Shown here: positions 29,524 to 53,549 of the stretch, one piece after another
Layout: every line of letters begins with the position of its first letter
How positions within the stretch are numbered: position 1 is the stretch's first letter
Source: Candidatus Jettenia ecosi
GTDB taxonomy: Bacteria > Planctomycetota > Brocadiia > Brocadiales > Brocadiaceae
Assembly (NCBI GenBank): GCA_005524015.1
Contig: SULG01000011.1
Location: 1 to 58,600, forward strand
DNA: 58,600 nt
Reading direction: 5' to 3'
Notes under the pieces: generated by a model
What the model was told of the DNA's origin: nothing
Database searches by the model: none
What the model saw: the letters and a program-made list of their open reading frames with translations, nothing else
Program-made: the position numbers and the translations under genes

Positions 29524-30537
29524 ATGGAACGGCGATATAAGAAAATTGTGTGGGGAATGGGAGCTATTGCTCTTCTTAATGGGTTGATATTCTTTACCCA
29601 TACCGTTGTAGCACATGCCGTGGATATTATTAGCAACGTCGCCAAGGACCCTACTGATATTCCAGTCCGTATATCGCGGTACTGCCCGAAGACTGTAACG
29701 GTAAATTTGGTTGCCAAAGAGGTTGTTGCTGATCTTGCCCCTGGAAAGAAATTCTGGTTCTGGACTTTTGCGCAAAAAGAGGGAGATACTGTAGGACCAG
29801 CAACTGTTCCGGGCCCTATGATACGAGTTATGGAAGGCGATACGGTAGTCATTAATCTAACGAATGACTTACATAACGAGGAACCACATAACCTTGATTT
29901 CCATGCCGGTTTTGGCGCCATGTTAATGGATATTGAGCCTGGGGAGACTGATACCTTAACGTTCAAGGCGATGCGAAAAGGGACATATATCTACCATTGC
30001 GGCGCTGAAGGAATGCCATGGGAGCATGTAGCCTATGGGATGTACGGCCTGATTGTTGTCGAACCAAGGGGAGGTCTCCCAAAGGTCGATAAGGAATTCT
30101 ATATTGGGCAGGGTGAATGGTATCTTAAACCGGGTATCGAAGATCATCCGAACATCCCTGGTTATTCTCTTAATGAGAAAAAGGCGCTGGCTGAACATCC
30201 CGATTATTTTACCTTTAATGGTCATACACAGGCGCTTATGGATCCATCAATATACGGCAACGCAATAACCGTGAATCAGGGTGATAAAGTTCGCCTCTTT
30301 TTTGTCGCTGGCGGTCCAAATATTGGATCAAATTTCCATATTATCGGTCAGATCTTCGATAAGTTTTATTCTGGCCATCACCTCGATTTTATAAGAAATG
30401 AGGAAACGGCTTACATTCCTCCCGGATCTGCCGCAGTATTTGAGTTCAAGGCATTAGCGACTGGCGATTTTTCTATTGTTGACCATGCCCTGTTCAGAGT
30501 ACCAAAGGGCGCTGGCGGTTTACTGCACGTAAAATAA
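29524..30537 (+). CDS. nirK: Copper-containing nitrite reductase
   Basis: This 337-residue two-domain cupredoxin enzyme reduces nitrite to NO, which in anammox feeds hydrazine synthesis. Type 1 copper ligands are H122, C159, H168 and M173 (PHNLDFHA, YHCGAEGMPWEHVAYGM). Type 2 ligands are H127, H158 and H321 (VDHALFRV). The catalytic pair D125 and H272 (FHIIGQ) is present and I274 takes the usual Ile position. A signal peptide or anchor spans residues 8-31. AAGGAGGA gives a strong ribosome-binding site. The next gene is another copper protein, so an electron-transfer pair is plausible. Confidence 0.92.
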   Translation: MERRYKKIVWGMGAIALLNGLIFFTHTVVAHAVDIISNVAKDPTDIPVRISRYCPKTVTVNLVAKEVVADLAPGKKFWFWTFAQKEGDTVGPATVPGPMIRVMEGDTVVINLTNDLHNEEPHNLDFHAGFGAMLMDIEPGETDTLTFKAMRKGTYIYHCGAEGMPWEHVAYGMYGLIVVEPRGGLPKVDKEFYIGQGEWYLKPGIEDHPNIPGYSLNEKKALAEHPDYFTFNGHTQALMDPSIYGNAITVNQGDKVRLFFVAGGPNIGSNFHIIGQIFDKFYSGHHLDFIRNEETAYIPPGSAAVFEFKALATGDFSIVDHALFRVPKGAGGLLHVK

Positions 30538-47722: not shown

Positions 47723-48784
47723 ATGGAAAGATTTGCTTTTTGGAACATTCTATCTTTCATGTTGCTCGTTATAGGTCTTTTATACGTTCCCTCAATCTTG
47801 GGTCAGGAGGGAAAGAAGGGATTACATGACACGCAAAGTTCTGATCAAGTCCCCTGTATAGAAGAAAAAGCACTATCAGCAGTGGCACAGCCAAAAACCA
47901 TAGGGGTGTTGGTTCTTGCACATGGGGCACATCATGGGCATGGAGAGAAAGGATCGGGTCACGTTCATGGAGAACAGCCCCCGGAAGAAATCCCATCGTG
48001 GAATGCCTCTGTTTTAAAAGCCGTCAAGCCACTCAAAGATACGTATCCGTTAGAAGTGGCCTTTGGTATGGCTGATCCGGAGACTATAAAGGAAGCCGTC
48101 CATAAATTAGAAGAAAAGGGTGTTTCCGTGGTAATAGTAGTACCATTGTTCATCTCTTCTCACAGTCCAATTATAGGCAATTCCCGCTACATCCTTGGTC
48201 TACAAAAAGAATTACCCTATACGACAGATGTTAAATCCTTACCCCGTTTAGAGAGTAAGCTAAGGTTTTCTATGACAGAGGCCCTTAACGATAGTCCTCT
48301 TGTGGCAGAGATTCTTTTGGAAAGGTCTCGTGAGTTAAGTACGAATCCGGCGAAAGAAACCGTTATCCTGGTTGGACATGGGCCTAATGATGAAAACGAG
48401 AATAAGCTTTGGCTGGATGATATGCAGAAACTTGCCGCATATGTCCGCGAGAAAGGTGGATTTAAGGAAGTTAAGGTTGCCACCTGGAGAAGTGATGCCC
48501 CGAAAGAGATTAAAGACAAGGCAATTTATGAGCTGAGAACAATGGTAAGAGCAAGCGGGGAGGATGGAAGGGTTATTATTATCCCGCACTTAATTTCCTC
48601 CGGCGGTGTAGAGAATGAGATTGTTGAAGCACTAAAAGGGCTTACCTATATCTTCAATGGTAAAACCTTATTGCCTCACGAGAATATAACGAGATGGATA
48701 GAAAAGCAGGTTGAAGAAGATATTCAGGGTTGTCTGGAAGGATCCAGGGCTCTTCCAGAAGATGCAGATGCAATATCCAAATAG
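47723..48784 (+). CDS. Secreted CbiX/SirB-like chelatase with a His-rich loop
   Basis: This 353-residue protein has two CbiX-type domains. The first has LAHGAHHGHG and the later VVPLFISSHSP; the second has VILVGHGPNDENE and IIPHLISSGGVENE. These place His residues as in class II tetrapyrrole chelatases, which insert Co or Fe into sirohydrochlorin. Unusually it begins with a signal peptide or anchor (FWNILSFMLLVIGLLYVP) and has a His-rich loop (residues 72-93, HGHGEKGSGHVHGE). Export to the anammoxosome or periplasm suggests haem or metal delivery to secreted cytochromes. AAGGAGG precedes the ATG. Confidence 0.8.
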   Translation: MERFAFWNILSFMLLVIGLLYVPSILGQEGKKGLHDTQSSDQVPCIEEKALSAVAQPKTIGVLVLAHGAHHGHGEKGSGHVHGEQPPEEIPSWNASVLKAVKPLKDTYPLEVAFGMADPETIKEAVHKLEEKGVSVVIVVPLFISSHSPIIGNSRYILGLQKELPYTTDVKSLPRLESKLRFSMTEALNDSPLVAEILLERSRELSTNPAKETVILVGHGPNDENENKLWLDDMQKLAAYVREKGGFKEVKVATWRSDAPKEIKDKAIYELRTMVRASGEDGRVIIIPHLISSGGVENEIVEALKGLTYIFNGKTLLPHENITRWIEKQVEEDIQGCLEGSRALPEDADAISK

Positions 48785-48880
48785 AATGGAGTTTGCTCAG
48801 GCAGGATGAAAAGTGATAACTATAGATAACTTTATCAGAATTATGGTATATCCTATCAATACCTTGATGAGAATTATGGT

Positions 48881-49097
48881 AACACGGTAGTTTTTTGAAA
48901 AAATACCGTGAGAAGCTCCGTTAGGAGCGAAATGTTTATAGACAAATCATTCTGCCACAATCAAGCTCTATCGGAGCAGCATGGTATCTCTGTGTTAAGG
49001 TTACATGCCGCTCCGATGGAGCTAAGGTTTTGAATATCACATGTTTCTAGAAACATTTCACCCCTATGGGGTTGTTTTTCAAAAAACTACCGTGTTA
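48881..49097. mobile_element. Family 5 inverted-repeat element
   Basis: Tips TAACACGGTAGTTTTTTGAA (48881) and the complement ending ACCGTGTTA (49097) bound a 217-bp non-coding element. Its right half recurs at 25370-25450. The rest of 48785-49359 contains no supported gene. Confidence 0.7.
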
Positions 49098-49359
49098 TGC
49101 GCTCAAAAGACTACGGTGTTGTGTACTGGCAAATATTTTGCAAGTTTTTGTATTGCAAAGTTACCTATGGTTTTTTAAGAAATTTGGTGTAAAATGCGGA
49201 TATGTCGGTATAACCTCAAAAATGAATAATTCAATCTGCAAGATTGCACCACCTATGACTTGATGTATCAAGCATTACACCATGATCATCTGTTATTGAA
49301 ATTCGCATTGGCGGTTTGCCAGTTACTCCCGTAATCCTTACAGTGAAAGGAGCGTCACC

Positions 49360-49851
49360 ATGTCGAGTATTTCCCATCTAAAAAGGGCATCAGTACTTCT
49401 TGTTTTATTTATGGCCTTATTTTTACCAACGGTTTCCTATGCACGTGATATTAAGGGTATAACCTCTACACAATTAAAAGAGATTATTAAATCAAAAAGC
49501 GATAAGGTCGTGGCGGTAATTTTCTGGGAAACACAGTGCAAGGTTTGCCAGGAGCACCTCTCTGTTTTGAATGATATTTATAAGGAACACAGAAAAGAGA
49601 ATTTAGAAATACTGGGCGTTGTACTTGATGAGGCAGGAAAAGAAACAAAGGATCTTATTGAGACAAAAGGAGTCGCTTTCCCCATCTTTAAAGCCGGAGA
49701 TAGAGAAGAAATGAGCTATATTTATAAGATTAGCAAGGTTCCCACGATATATTACTATAAAAATGGCGAACTTGAATACCATAAAGAGGAAGGGTATGCC
49801 GAACCGGATCATATAGATAAAGATATACATAAATTACTGGGAAAGAGCTAA
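49360..49851 (+). CDS. Secreted thioredoxin-like (TlpA/ResA-type) protein
   Basis: This 163-residue protein has a signal peptide (residues 8-28, ending VSYA) and a thioredoxin fold with the redox motif WETQCKVCQEH (CXXC at about 60-63) and cis-Pro in SKVPTIYY. Proteins of this type keep haem-binding Cys residues reduced during cytochrome c maturation. It leads the encapsulin operon (26 bp gap), where the next two products contain about ten CXXCH sites, so that role is likely. AAAGGAG precedes the ATG. Confidence 0.85.
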   Translation: MSSISHLKRASVLLVLFMALFLPTVSYARDIKGITSTQLKEIIKSKSDKVVAVIFWETQCKVCQEHLSVLNDIYKEHRKENLEILGVVLDEAGKETKDLIETKGVAFPIFKAGDREEMSYIYKISKVPTIYYYKNGELEYHKEEGYAEPDHIDKDIHKLLGKS

Positions 49852-49877
49852 ATTAACTTCAAAATGGAGTTTTTACT

Positions 49878-51035
49878 ATGAAAGAAAAGGTATTAATAAG
49901 AAAAGGGGGAAGGGTTATGGGTATGCTAAATAAATATAAAACATTAGTTATTGCCTTGCTCGTAACGTTCTGTTTTTCATCATGGGGTTCATCTGTTTTT
50001 GCTGCGTGTACGAAAGAAAACGACTGCTTTTCCTGTCACACAGCACAGGAATTAAGAAAGGTCCATAAAAATTGTCAATACCTGGAGCAGGGCTGTCTTG
50101 CATGCCATAAAGCGCCAGCAGCTTCATCTGGTTTAGCAAAGGAAGCAGGAGCGCCTTATAGTTGTTCACAAGGAGAGGCATCCCCGGGGATGAAAGAGGC
50201 AAAGTTTGCAGAAATTACATCTGAAGTGCATCTTGGTGCCGAAGACTGGGCGAAATTGCAACGTACGGTCCATGAGACGGTTGAAGGGCATCGTGTGGGA
50301 AGAAAGTTTATCGAGGTTTACGGTCCATTAGGAACAGGCGCTCAATGTGTACCGCTTGATACCTATGCAATACCCTCCTGGGCAAATGTTGATATGTTGG
50401 GGGAGGGAAACGAAGCCATACATTCCCTGAAAAGAGAGATTGCACACATACCCCTTATTTACAAAGATTTTTGGCTCTTCTGGAGGGATATAGAGGCAGG
50501 GAAAAAGTGTAATACTCCTTTGGATGTGAGCGCTGCGGTGGGCGCCGCAATAGCTGCTGCCGCCAGGGAAGACGATCTTATATTTCATGGTCTGCCGGAA
50601 ATGGGTATGTCGGGACTTTTAAATGCTAATGGAAGGAATATCCTTAAGATTAGTGACTGGTCGGTAATAGGGAATGGTTTTCAGGATGTTGTATCGGCTG
50701 TGGAAAAACTAAGGAGTTCGGGTTTTTCCCCTCCTTATGCTCTCGTTGTAAGCCCAAAACTTTACGCCCTCCTCCATAAGGTTTATGAGCGTACAGGGAA
50801 ATTAGAAATAGAAGGGGTAAAGGAGTTGGTAAAAGGGGGCGTATATCAGAGTCCGGTGTTCAAAAAGGATGTTGCCCTTGTTGTAGCGACTGGCAGACAA
50901 AACCTTGACTTGGCGGTAGGGACTAATTTTAAGGTAGAGTACTGGGGCTCTCAGGATTTAAATCACCGGTTCAGGGTTGTTGGGAGTTCAGTGCTGAGAA
51001 TCAAATGCCCTCAAGCCATCTGTACGCTGGAGTAA
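49878..51035 (+). CDS. Encapsulin shell protein fused to a di-heme cytochrome c
   Basis: This 385-residue protein has a signal peptide (hydrophobic residues 21-40, SVFAA), then a short cytochrome domain with CFSCH (50-54) and CLACH (73-77). A linker leads to a full family 1 encapsulin (about 107-385): WAKLQRTVHETVEGHRVGRKFIEVYGPLG, split here only by description, then EDDLIFHGLPEMGMSGLL and PYALVVSPKLYALL, ending VVGSSVLRIKCPQAICTLE. Encapsulins self-assemble into icosahedral shells around enzymes; the di-heme fusion is known from anammox bacteria. It lies 3 bp before its presumed cargo. ATG at 49878 has GGAG upstream; ATGs at 49917 and 49923 are alternatives. Confidence 0.93.
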   Translation: MKEKVLIRKGGRVMGMLNKYKTLVIALLVTFCFSSWGSSVFAACTKENDCFSCHTAQELRKVHKNCQYLEQGCLACHKAPAASSGLAKEAGAPYSCSQGEASPGMKEAKFAEITSEVHLGAEDWAKLQRTVHETVEGHRVGRKFIEVYGPLGTGAQCVPLDTYAIPSWANVDMLGEGNEAIHSLKREIAHIPLIYKDFWLFWRDIEAGKKCNTPLDVSAAVGAAIAAAAREDDLIFHGLPEMGMSGLLNANGRNILKISDWSVIGNGFQDVVSAVEKLRSSGFSPPYALVVSPKLYALLHKVYERTGKLEIEGVKELVKGGVYQSPVFKKDVALVVATGRQNLDLAVGTNFKVEYWGSQDLNHRFRVVGSSVLRIKCPQAICTLE

Positions 51036-51038
51036 GGT

Positions 51039-53549
51039 ATGTCTCATAAATTATGGACTTACCCGACAGCAGTTCTTATATGTCTTCTTTCCTGGTTTCG
51101 GCATGGATATGCTGAAATTCCCTGCCTTATAGAGAAAGATGGAGTTCTTAATCTTGAGATGGAGGCGAGGCCTGTTGATCTGGAACTCAGACCTGGGGTA
51201 TTCTTTGGCGCCTGGGGGTACTGCATAAAAGGAGAAAAACCGACCGTGCCTGGTCCCACCATCAAAGTGAAAGAAGGAACGAAGGTCAGAATTCACTTCA
51301 CGAATAAACTTACCGTCCCTTCATCCATCCATCCTCATGGAGCAAAGTACACGGTTGCCAGTGATGGCGCTCATATAGCAGGAAATCCGGCTAGTGTCGT
51401 AGATCCCGGAGATTCAGGGACATTTGAGTGGGATACCTCTGGTACGCCGGGAACCTGGTTTTATCACCCTCACGTCTTTGAGATGGGGGGCGAAGAAGGG
51501 GTATCCAGAGGACTGTGGGGGGCTCTCATTGTGGAACCAGAGAATAGTAATCCAGATCCCCCTGATAAAGAGTTTGTAGTCTTCATGCATACGTTTCTTT
51601 TACAGGGAAAGAAATATGAGGCCTTTAACGATAAGTCCGGAGATGTGGAATTTATGAACGGAGACCGTTCTGCCTTTCCCGGGTTGGTATGGCGGGTAAA
51701 AATGGGCGAAAAGGTAAGATTTCATCTCATAAATTCTTCCGGGGAGATGCACACCTTTCATACTCATGGCCATCGCTGGATGGATAAAGCGAGCGGACAG
51801 CTTACTGATAACATATCATTAGCGCCTTTTACTTCGTACGTCCTGGATTTTGTTGCCGGAGAGGGGGTCGGACCCGGCAACTGGGCGTTCCACTGCCATG
51901 ATAATGAGCATATGATGAATGGGATGTTTGGAATTTTTGTGGTAGAGGATGAAACAAAAAGACCGAAAGCGGAAATGATTCCCCCTGTGCTTAAAGGTCC
52001 TCCGGGCTCTTTTACGTATCCGGATCCGGAACTTAAGAAGATGTTTGAGGATTTTGTGGGTTTGTCCCAGGGCGATGGTCCATGGGGAGAATTTTATAAA
52101 CCGATTCCCTTTTATATCTACTTTAATCCAGCAAGGCATTATTTCCCAACAGATAGTGATAATTATAAAAAGCTTTTAGAGAAATACCGGTACGATGAGT
52201 GCGTGGAATGTCATGAAGAGGCTACTCCCGGTATTGTAGCGCAATGGAAGATGTCCAATCATGCCAATCCTAAGAAGAATGCAGAGGTTGCTGCAGAGAC
52301 ACAGGAGATTGAGGAGCTTATTGGTAAGGAGCTGAACAACTGGAAACCAGGGACCAAAGGCGGCGTTTACTGCTCCTACTGTCATGGCAAAGACCATGAG
52401 AGCCTGTTTATGCCTACCGTAGATAACTCATGCGGCGCTTGTCATCCAAACCAGGCGAGGGAGTTTGCCCGGGGTAGAGATTACGGTAAGCCAAGTCATC
52501 CTCATAGTTGGGAAGGAGGTTTGTCCACGCCGTGGTATGTCGAGAATTACCGGCGCAATCAGGGCTTTTCTATGATCGGATGTGATCAGTGCCATCAGAA
52601 TATGTCGTCATGTGATGACTGTCATGGTCGCCATCTCTTTTCGGCTGCCGAAGCGCGCCGTCCGGAGGTATGTTCAGGCTGTCATTTAGGACCTGATCAC
52701 CCGGACTGGGAGAGTTATATACATTCCAAATGGGGAATTGCTTATGAGATTTCCGGGGAGAAGTGGAACTGGGAAAAGAAACTCTCTGAGGTGATTCCCG
52801 GCAAAGATTATCCTACCCCGACATGTCAATACTGTCATATGTATGTAGGTAATGGCCGATGGGAGATGAATGTGGAGACCAAAGGTATATGGCGTATGGG
52901 AGTCACTCCACCAAAAGAAGTGGAGTTTAAATCAAGTCTGAAGGATTTTCCCTATGGTGTAAAAATACCGCCGATGGATAAGAAGCTTGAGATTTATTCC
53001 CCGGAAAGCCATGAGAAACGGCGCTATTGGATAGAGCTTTGCGCAAAATGCCATGGCAGCCGATTTTCAAGGATGTGGCTGGATTCCATAGATCAATATA
53101 TGTTTGAGTCATGGAAGCGGATAGATGAGGCGCAGCTCATCGTAGAAGAGCTTTTTGCCGGGGATATGGTTAAGCCATCGCCGGAAGAAAGATCTCCTTT
53201 TCCCTTGAGTGATTTAATGGTTAAGATACTCGGCCCTGAAAAATTGGGCCCGGAAGTTTATAATCTCCTGAAAAAAACCAATGGTCACTTACCAGTTGTA
53301 GGACCAATTCTTGGCGCCTATGCTATATTCACTGAAAAGGATGGAAATCCAAGCGGTGTGGAAAGGGAATATGTAGAGATGTGGTTCTGGAAACATTTGC
53401 AGGGGTACAAAGGAGTAGCTCATGCCCAGCAGGATATAAGCTGGTGGTTGGGCAGTTCACAAACTATGGGCAAACTCACCCATATTCAGGATGAGGCAAT
53501 GAAGCTAAAGCGATTGAAGGCGCTTGAAGATGCCGTGAAAAGCAAGTGA
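51039..53549 (+). CDS. Multicopper oxidase fused to octaheme HAO-like cytochrome (encapsulin cargo)
   Basis: This 836-residue secreted protein has a signal peptide (residues 8-25). Residues 50-305 are two cupredoxin domains with HPHG (98-101), HPH (143-145), HTFHTHGH (238-245) and HCHDNEHMMNGM (285-296). This is the full ligand set for one type 1 site and a trinuclear cluster. Residues 380-690 carry eight CXXCH sites (388, 445, 465, 515, 525, 545, 596, 668) spaced as in hydroxylamine oxidoreductase-like octahaem proteins. The known anammox encapsulin cargo is described as a nitrite reductase-HAO fusion. No obvious encapsulin-loading peptide is seen at the end (KALEDAVKSK). It is translated with the shell gene. 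Confidence 0.9.
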   Translation: MSHKLWTYPTAVLICLLSWFRHGYAEIPCLIEKDGVLNLEMEARPVDLELRPGVFFGAWGYCIKGEKPTVPGPTIKVKEGTKVRIHFTNKLTVPSSIHPHGAKYTVASDGAHIAGNPASVVDPGDSGTFEWDTSGTPGTWFYHPHVFEMGGEEGVSRGLWGALIVEPENSNPDPPDKEFVVFMHTFLLQGKKYEAFNDKSGDVEFMNGDRSAFPGLVWRVKMGEKVRFHLINSSGEMHTFHTHGHRWMDKASGQLTDNISLAPFTSYVLDFVAGEGVGPGNWAFHCHDNEHMMNGMFGIFVVEDETKRPKAEMIPPVLKGPPGSFTYPDPELKKMFEDFVGLSQGDGPWGEFYKPIPFYIYFNPARHYFPTDSDNYKKLLEKYRYDECVECHEEATPGIVAQWKMSNHANPKKNAEVAAETQEIEELIGKELNNWKPGTKGGVYCSYCHGKDHESLFMPTVDNSCGACHPNQAREFARGRDYGKPSHPHSWEGGLSTPWYVENYRRNQGFSMIGCDQCHQNMSSCDDCHGRHLFSAAEARRPEVCSGCHLGPDHPDWESYIHSKWGIAYEISGEKWNWEKKLSEVIPGKDYPTPTCQYCHMYVGNGRWEMNVETKGIWRMGVTPPKEVEFKSSLKDFPYGVKIPPMDKKLEIYSPESHEKRRYWIELCAKCHGSRFSRMWLDSIDQYMFESWKRIDEAQLIVEELFAGDMVKPSPEERSPFPLSDLMVKILGPEKLGPEVYNLLKKTNGHLPVVGPILGAYAIFTEKDGNPSGVEREYVEMWFWKHLQGYKGVAHAQQDISWWLGSSQTMGKLTHIQDEAMKLKRLKALEDAVKSK

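Follow-up and report, generated by a model that had tools for sequence, protein, structure and literature searches.

A probably exported encapsulin operon in Candidatus Jettenia ecosi with a thioredoxin gene and a predicted laccase-type copper/octahaem cargo

Candidatus Jettenia ecosi carries a three-gene operon that, in our judgment, fairly likely encodes an anammox-specific exported encapsulin, matured in the anammoxosome, together with a thioredoxin thiol reductase and a cargo that lacks a classical loading peptide. The operon lies in a 58,600-nucleotide stretch of contig SULG01000011.1, referred to here in its entirety as the window. The shell protein would be exported unfolded by Sec and would assemble after crossing the membrane, most likely in the anammoxosome; two haems would be attached after export and, because they are located N-terminal of the HK97 fold, would face the lumen, the direction in which N-terminal fusions point in Flp-fusion encapsulins (PMC8346489). 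The cargo would be a laccase-type multicopper oxidase fused to an octahaem hydroxylamine oxidoreductase (HAO)-like enzyme of the reductive type, and we propose that this fusion lets electrons pass between haem nitrogen chemistry and the copper site. The thioredoxin (Trx) would act as a CcsX/TlpA-like thiol reductase, maintaining the many cysteines of shell and cargo after export (haem motifs, a copper ligand, and free thiols) in reduced or properly paired form until the cofactors have been inserted. If this is true, an encapsulin with no known tag on its cargo would fold, acquire haem, and close up only after crossing a membrane.

The core of this finding is already known, since an anammox encapsulin system has been published and its export proposed. 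The freshwater system with a NiR/HAO cargo is described, as far as the accounts that cite it go, by Giessen & Silver 2017 (cited in PMC6934571; PMC8346489), and a 2021 survey proposed Sec export, haem maturation, and assembly within the anammoxosome for cytochrome-fused shells (PMC8346489). A T=3 shell has been reported for cytochrome-fusion encapsulins (PMC8346489), and 25 nm particles have been reported for the S. rubra relative. The window operon fits the definition of an anammox cytochrome-fused encapsulin (cEnc), with an N-terminal di-haem fusion and an adjacent copper/HAO cargo gene, and it shares with the published systems the order of shell and fusion cargo, the signal peptide, and a nearby Trx gene. 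It differs from them in that its Trx is a tail-less paralogue, its copper ligands are laccase-type rather than nitrite-reductase-type, and a deletion scar lies upstream (Table 1). New in the present analysis are the distribution of the Trx, the signal peptides on haem-less shells, the analysis of the cargo end, the laccase-type ligands, and a cysteine tail with its scar.

Table 1. Features of the encapsulin operon and its upstream region (window positions).
Feature	Positions	Strand	Description and basis
CbiX-like gene (sirohydrochlorin chelatase family)	47723..48784	+	Exported; last ~25 codons from deleted thioredoxin "Trx1"; Pfam CbiX, homologous DNA in L025, alignment
Deletion scar	48703..48823	+	Trx1 3' end (coding ..EEDIQGCLEGSRALPEDADAISK) fused in frame with CbiX; BLASTN to L025, 76.9% over 121 bp
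Thioredoxin gene	49360..49851	+	Exported, ResA/CcsX/TlpA-like, CKVC active site, cis-Pro; Pfam/NCBIfam, PDB ResA matches, alignment, orthogroup search
Shell gene	49878..51035	+	Family 1 encapsulin carrying a signal peptide and an N-terminal di-haem region; NF041155 243 bits, alignment of 23 homologues
Shell haem c attachment motifs (n=2)	50025..50108	+	CFSCH 50025-50039, CLACH 50094-50108; sequence, kept in haem-type shells
HK97-type shell domain (residues 118-385)	50229..51032	+	NF041155 stretch 118-384; PDB relatives M. xanthus EncA 4pt2 etc.
Cargo gene	51039..53549	+	Exported; two-domain multicopper oxidase fused to octahaem HAO-like protein
Cargo copper domain	51114..51953	+	Laccase-type, type 1 copper in domain 2 plus trinuclear centre; ligand table, PDB search, Foldseek
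Cargo octahaem HAO-like domain	51996..53546	+	8 CxxCH; closest solved relative 6h5l

An earlier note on this DNA had described three contiguous genes with signal peptides. All three are open reading frames on one strand, separated by gaps of 26 and 3 bp, and each encodes a hydrophobic signal segment (3/3; segments were called by hydropathy scan, not SignalP). Because homologues of the shell line up only from codon 14 of the listed frame, 49917 is the probable start of the gene, which widens the first gap from 26 to ~65 bp. Profile searches placed the Trx in Thioredoxin_8/AhpC-TSA, with ResA as the best curated subfamily (Pfam/NCBIfam), the shell in Linocin_M18 (Pfam; 8e-63) and family 1 encapsulin NF041155 (243 bits versus a cut-off of 100), and the cargo in Cu-oxidase_3/_2 and Multi-haem_cyto; CxxCH motifs number two in the shell and eight in the cargo. 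A promoter and terminator scan returned sites no more numerous than in shuffled sequence.

To place the shell, we compared it with solved structures and with its anammox homologues. Its best PDB match, Myxococcus xanthus EncA (4pt2, 7s20), is likewise a family 1 shell with the AICTLE C-terminal end, but EncA has neither signal peptide nor haem domain and its cargo carries LTVGSLRR-type peptides (PMC10960027). The AlphaFold model of the shell was unusable (pLDDT 36). Among 62 Brocadiales genomes, the shell is present in 20, and a hydrophobic signal segment precedes every anammox shell with an intact visible 5' end. These include shells without any CxxCH motif (those of G003, G010, G029, G032, G040 [first copy], and G044), whereas the same hydropathy scan detected no signal segment in 8 shells from other phyla. 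Outside Brocadiales, the shell frames of class relatives are 277 to 279 amino acids long and lack the N-terminal extension. The earlier note had deduced export from haem attachment; export of shell and cargo is supported, but haem alone is a weak basis for it, as haem-less shells have signal peptides too. Judged from these sequences, shell export appears not to depend on haem.

In two assemblies, a frame break near the signal peptide hides shell features. The S. rubra shell (L069) appears unexported only because its signal segment sits in a different frame a short way upstream. The shell of B. carolinensis (L033/L061), reported as unfused, has haem motifs; its frame is broken at an A-run within the signal region. 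Both breaks may be assembly errors, and they may explain the earlier "unfused" descriptions. Haem-type shells occur in 13 genomes and haem-less shells alone in six, and the shell tree requires four changes of haem state and one change of Trx. Two genomes carry tandem shell genes, one haem-less and one with haem motifs (G040: L036, 1-1719; G022: L030, 6705-8589, where the second is a truncated remnant), and mixed shells are possible from such pairs. Anammox shells also have several cysteines, at C144-, C212-, and C364-like positions, that are absent from the M. xanthus and 9fy6 shells; we rejected fixed disulfide pairs among them because their presence across species in the alignment does not pair up.

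The copper ligands of the cargo (HPHG, HPH, HxxHxH, and HCHxxxHxxxGM) make up a full laccase-type two-domain set, in which motifs were assigned to sites as is established for multicopper oxidases. Small laccases are the best solved matches both by sequence (PDB search) and by fold (Foldseek, run on the part of the AlphaFold model at pLDDT 70-85; only the copper domain of that model was usable). A copper nitrite reductase (NirK) was considered and rejected, as the type 1 ligands lie in domain 2 and not in domain 1; the cargo scores 54.6 bits against TIGR02376 (Cu nitrite reductase; cut-off 296). Ligand pattern and fold model thus point to a laccase-type two-domain oxidase rather than a Cu nitrite reductase, which corrects the label of this domain. 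Small two-domain laccases such as 3cg8 share the four motifs and the domain order, and the window protein differs from them in being fused to an octahaem HAO-like protein, in anaerobes. Elsewhere in the window, a separate cupredoxin gene (29524-30537) has a NirK-like HCxxxxMPWEHVxxGM motif and reaches 228.6 bits against the Cu nitrite reductase model, whose curated cut-off of 296.3 it does not attain; it is probably the real NirK-type gene of this genome.

The HAO half has its nearest solved relative in the kustc0458-type octahaem HAO (PDB 6h5l, E 2e-158), which lacks a fused copper domain, and the cargo stretch aligned to the HAO tyrosine region contains no tyrosine. Two trinuclear-site histidines are lost in G035, G031, and K. 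hertensis, and other copper-site ligands are lost in G032 and G044; the copper site is therefore dispensable in some lineages and copper chemistry is not universal. These five lineages keep the octahaem part, a pattern that counts against a compartment serving mainly as an iron store in which the copper domain is a ferroxidase, like the ferroxidase cargos of other encapsulins. That alternative draws on the iron-storing M. xanthus EncA among the closest shell structures, on the 2021 survey, which names iron storage in the anammoxosome as a possible role (PMC8346489), and on cation-efflux genes upstream at three loci. No ferritin-like gene, however, adjoins the shell in the neighbourhoods read, and we regard an iron store as very unlikely.

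We next considered how the cargo, whose encapsulation is suggested by operon linkage, might be loaded. The earlier note saw no standard C-terminal loading peptide on the cargo, and no classical loading motif occurs in the C termini of cargo homologues, in inter-domain linkers, or in neighbouring ORFs; a whole-genome short-peptide search for such motifs gave no match but, with no positive control, was uninformative. Complete cargo homologues share an end point within a few residues, and 6h5l and the HAO paralogues that are not encapsulated align to that point too. Of the K. pneumoniae shell residues required for peptide binding (R34, D38, and D229; PMC10960027), R34 is kept in nearly all shells, D38 is variable, and D229 is replaced by N in most haem-type shells. 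We suggest that the cargo would be caught by co-assembly or by surface contacts more readily than by a classical C-terminal peptide.

A different proposal, also made in the earlier note, is that the di-haem domain loads the cargo, here by docking on its HAO domain inside an exported shell. Haem-type shells are frequent, being found in 13 genomes, and a link to a di-haem cytochrome c is documented for kustc0458, the closest HAO relative (PMC12053348). However, the six genomes with haem-less shells only keep the same cargo gene adjoining the shell, so the di-haem region is not a general loading device; G040 has both shell types in tandem, and the PDB offered the shell haem region one weak multihaem match and no significant di-haem partner. 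We consider di-haem docking improbable and continue to favor co-assembly or surface contacts.

To ask how closely the Trx follows the shell, we defined an orthogroup at ≥36% identity and 133 bits; the best Trx outside it, whatever the genome, reached 77 bits. Orthologues were found in 13/20 shell-bearing and 0/42 shell-less genomes (Fisher 9e-9, relatedness ignored). The neighbourhood comparison proposed in the earlier note placed the gene directly upstream of the shell in 11 of the 13 Trx-bearing genomes, co-oriented with it and at ≤0.5 kb; in B. carolinensis it lies 2.6 kb upstream, and in G017 it is 214 kb from the shell and adjoins an ApbE gene, its usual neighbour elsewhere. Genes for an exported ApbE and an FMN-binding protein often occur just upstream of the Trx (L025, L028-L030, L032, L034-L036, L042, and L044) and are absent from the window operon.

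The suggestion that this Trx is a dedicated aid for haem attachment is weakened by two genomes: G031 (genus Kuenenia) has haem motifs in its shell and no Trx orthologue, and K. hertensis has the Trx and a shell without haem motifs. Having the Trx therefore does not entail the haem type, nor does the haem type require the Trx, which is thus not strictly a haem-attachment factor. It is present in 12/13 haem genomes versus 1/6 haem-less genomes (Fisher 0.003), but we rejected this overlap as independent evidence because the Trx changes only once on the shell tree, leaving 1 to 3 independent pairs. The Brocadiales comparison thus separates questions of export, haem, and Trx that had been tied together, and it supplies natural haem-less and Trx-less controls.

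Nor are the Trx link and the loading question quite as little explored as had been thought: the Trx was drawn as a possible secondary cargo by Tracey 2019 (PMC6934571), and CcsX-like anammox thioredoxins were listed in 2013 in an account of anammox cytochrome c maturation, which requires a p-side CcsX-type reductase (PMC4222556). The 2013 list appears to include the encapsulin-linked Trx. Judging by length, neighbouring accessions, and number of cysteines, two of its KSU-1 entries, GAB64221 and GAB64222, appear to be the tailed and tail-less tandem Trx described below. The window Trx resembles CcsX/ResA and TlpA-type thioredoxins in its exported Trx fold with CxxC motif and cis-Pro, although it scores 50 against the ResA model (cut-off 170); it differs from them in adjoining a shell gene and in having orthologues with an extra C-terminal cysteine tail.

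This tail, HIEEDLRSCLEGxxPPSKD with an invariant cysteine, is found on eleven encapsulin-linked Trx proteins. Mean pairwise identity is 82% in the Cys-proximal part of the tail, exceeding the 68% of the Trx core, and 48% in the distal part. Other anammox Trx paralogues end before the tail, and a search of ten genomes with the tail consensus returned encapsulin-linked Trx as the only good matches. The tail is missing from the window Trx, from its copy in G027, and from the G028 Trx. G027 encodes two tandem Trx, one tailed and one tail-less, and the window Trx is the tail-less paralogue, "Trx2". Both the window species and G028 have lost the tailed copy by deletion, and its last codons now form the end of the upstream CbiX-like gene; apart from Trx2, this scar is the single tail match in the window genome. 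We had considered a C-terminal tag shared by CbiX and Trx and rejected it, since the DNA shows an in-frame deletion scar and the tail on CbiX changes fast (nonsynonymous in 6/9 changed codons).

The tail could nevertheless mean that the Trx itself is cargo, held by a new encapsulin docking peptide, the lumen then being a redox chamber with its own reductant. Such a role would fit the restriction of the tail, across the genomes queried with its consensus, to encapsulin-linked Trx and the CbiX scar, its conservation around the cysteine, and the secondary cargo of the Tracey 2019 drawing; loading peptides, moreover, usually follow a Pro/Gly-rich linker (PMC10960027). Yet the tail is unlike known loading peptides, its conserved part adjoins the Trx fold while the distal part varies, three Trx proteins including that of the window do without it, it evolves fast on CbiX, and its cysteine could be no more than a third redox thiol. 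We therefore think it unlikely that the Trx is cargo, and retain the thiol reductase reading. That the tail is a new extracytoplasmic docking signal, placing a thiol reductase on or in the encapsulin and creating a redox-controlled compartment assembled outside the cytoplasm, is a doubtful prospect as well; it does leave one short conserved peptide worth testing. Directly after the scar, ~296 bp (48824-49119) have no match in the homologous G027 region.
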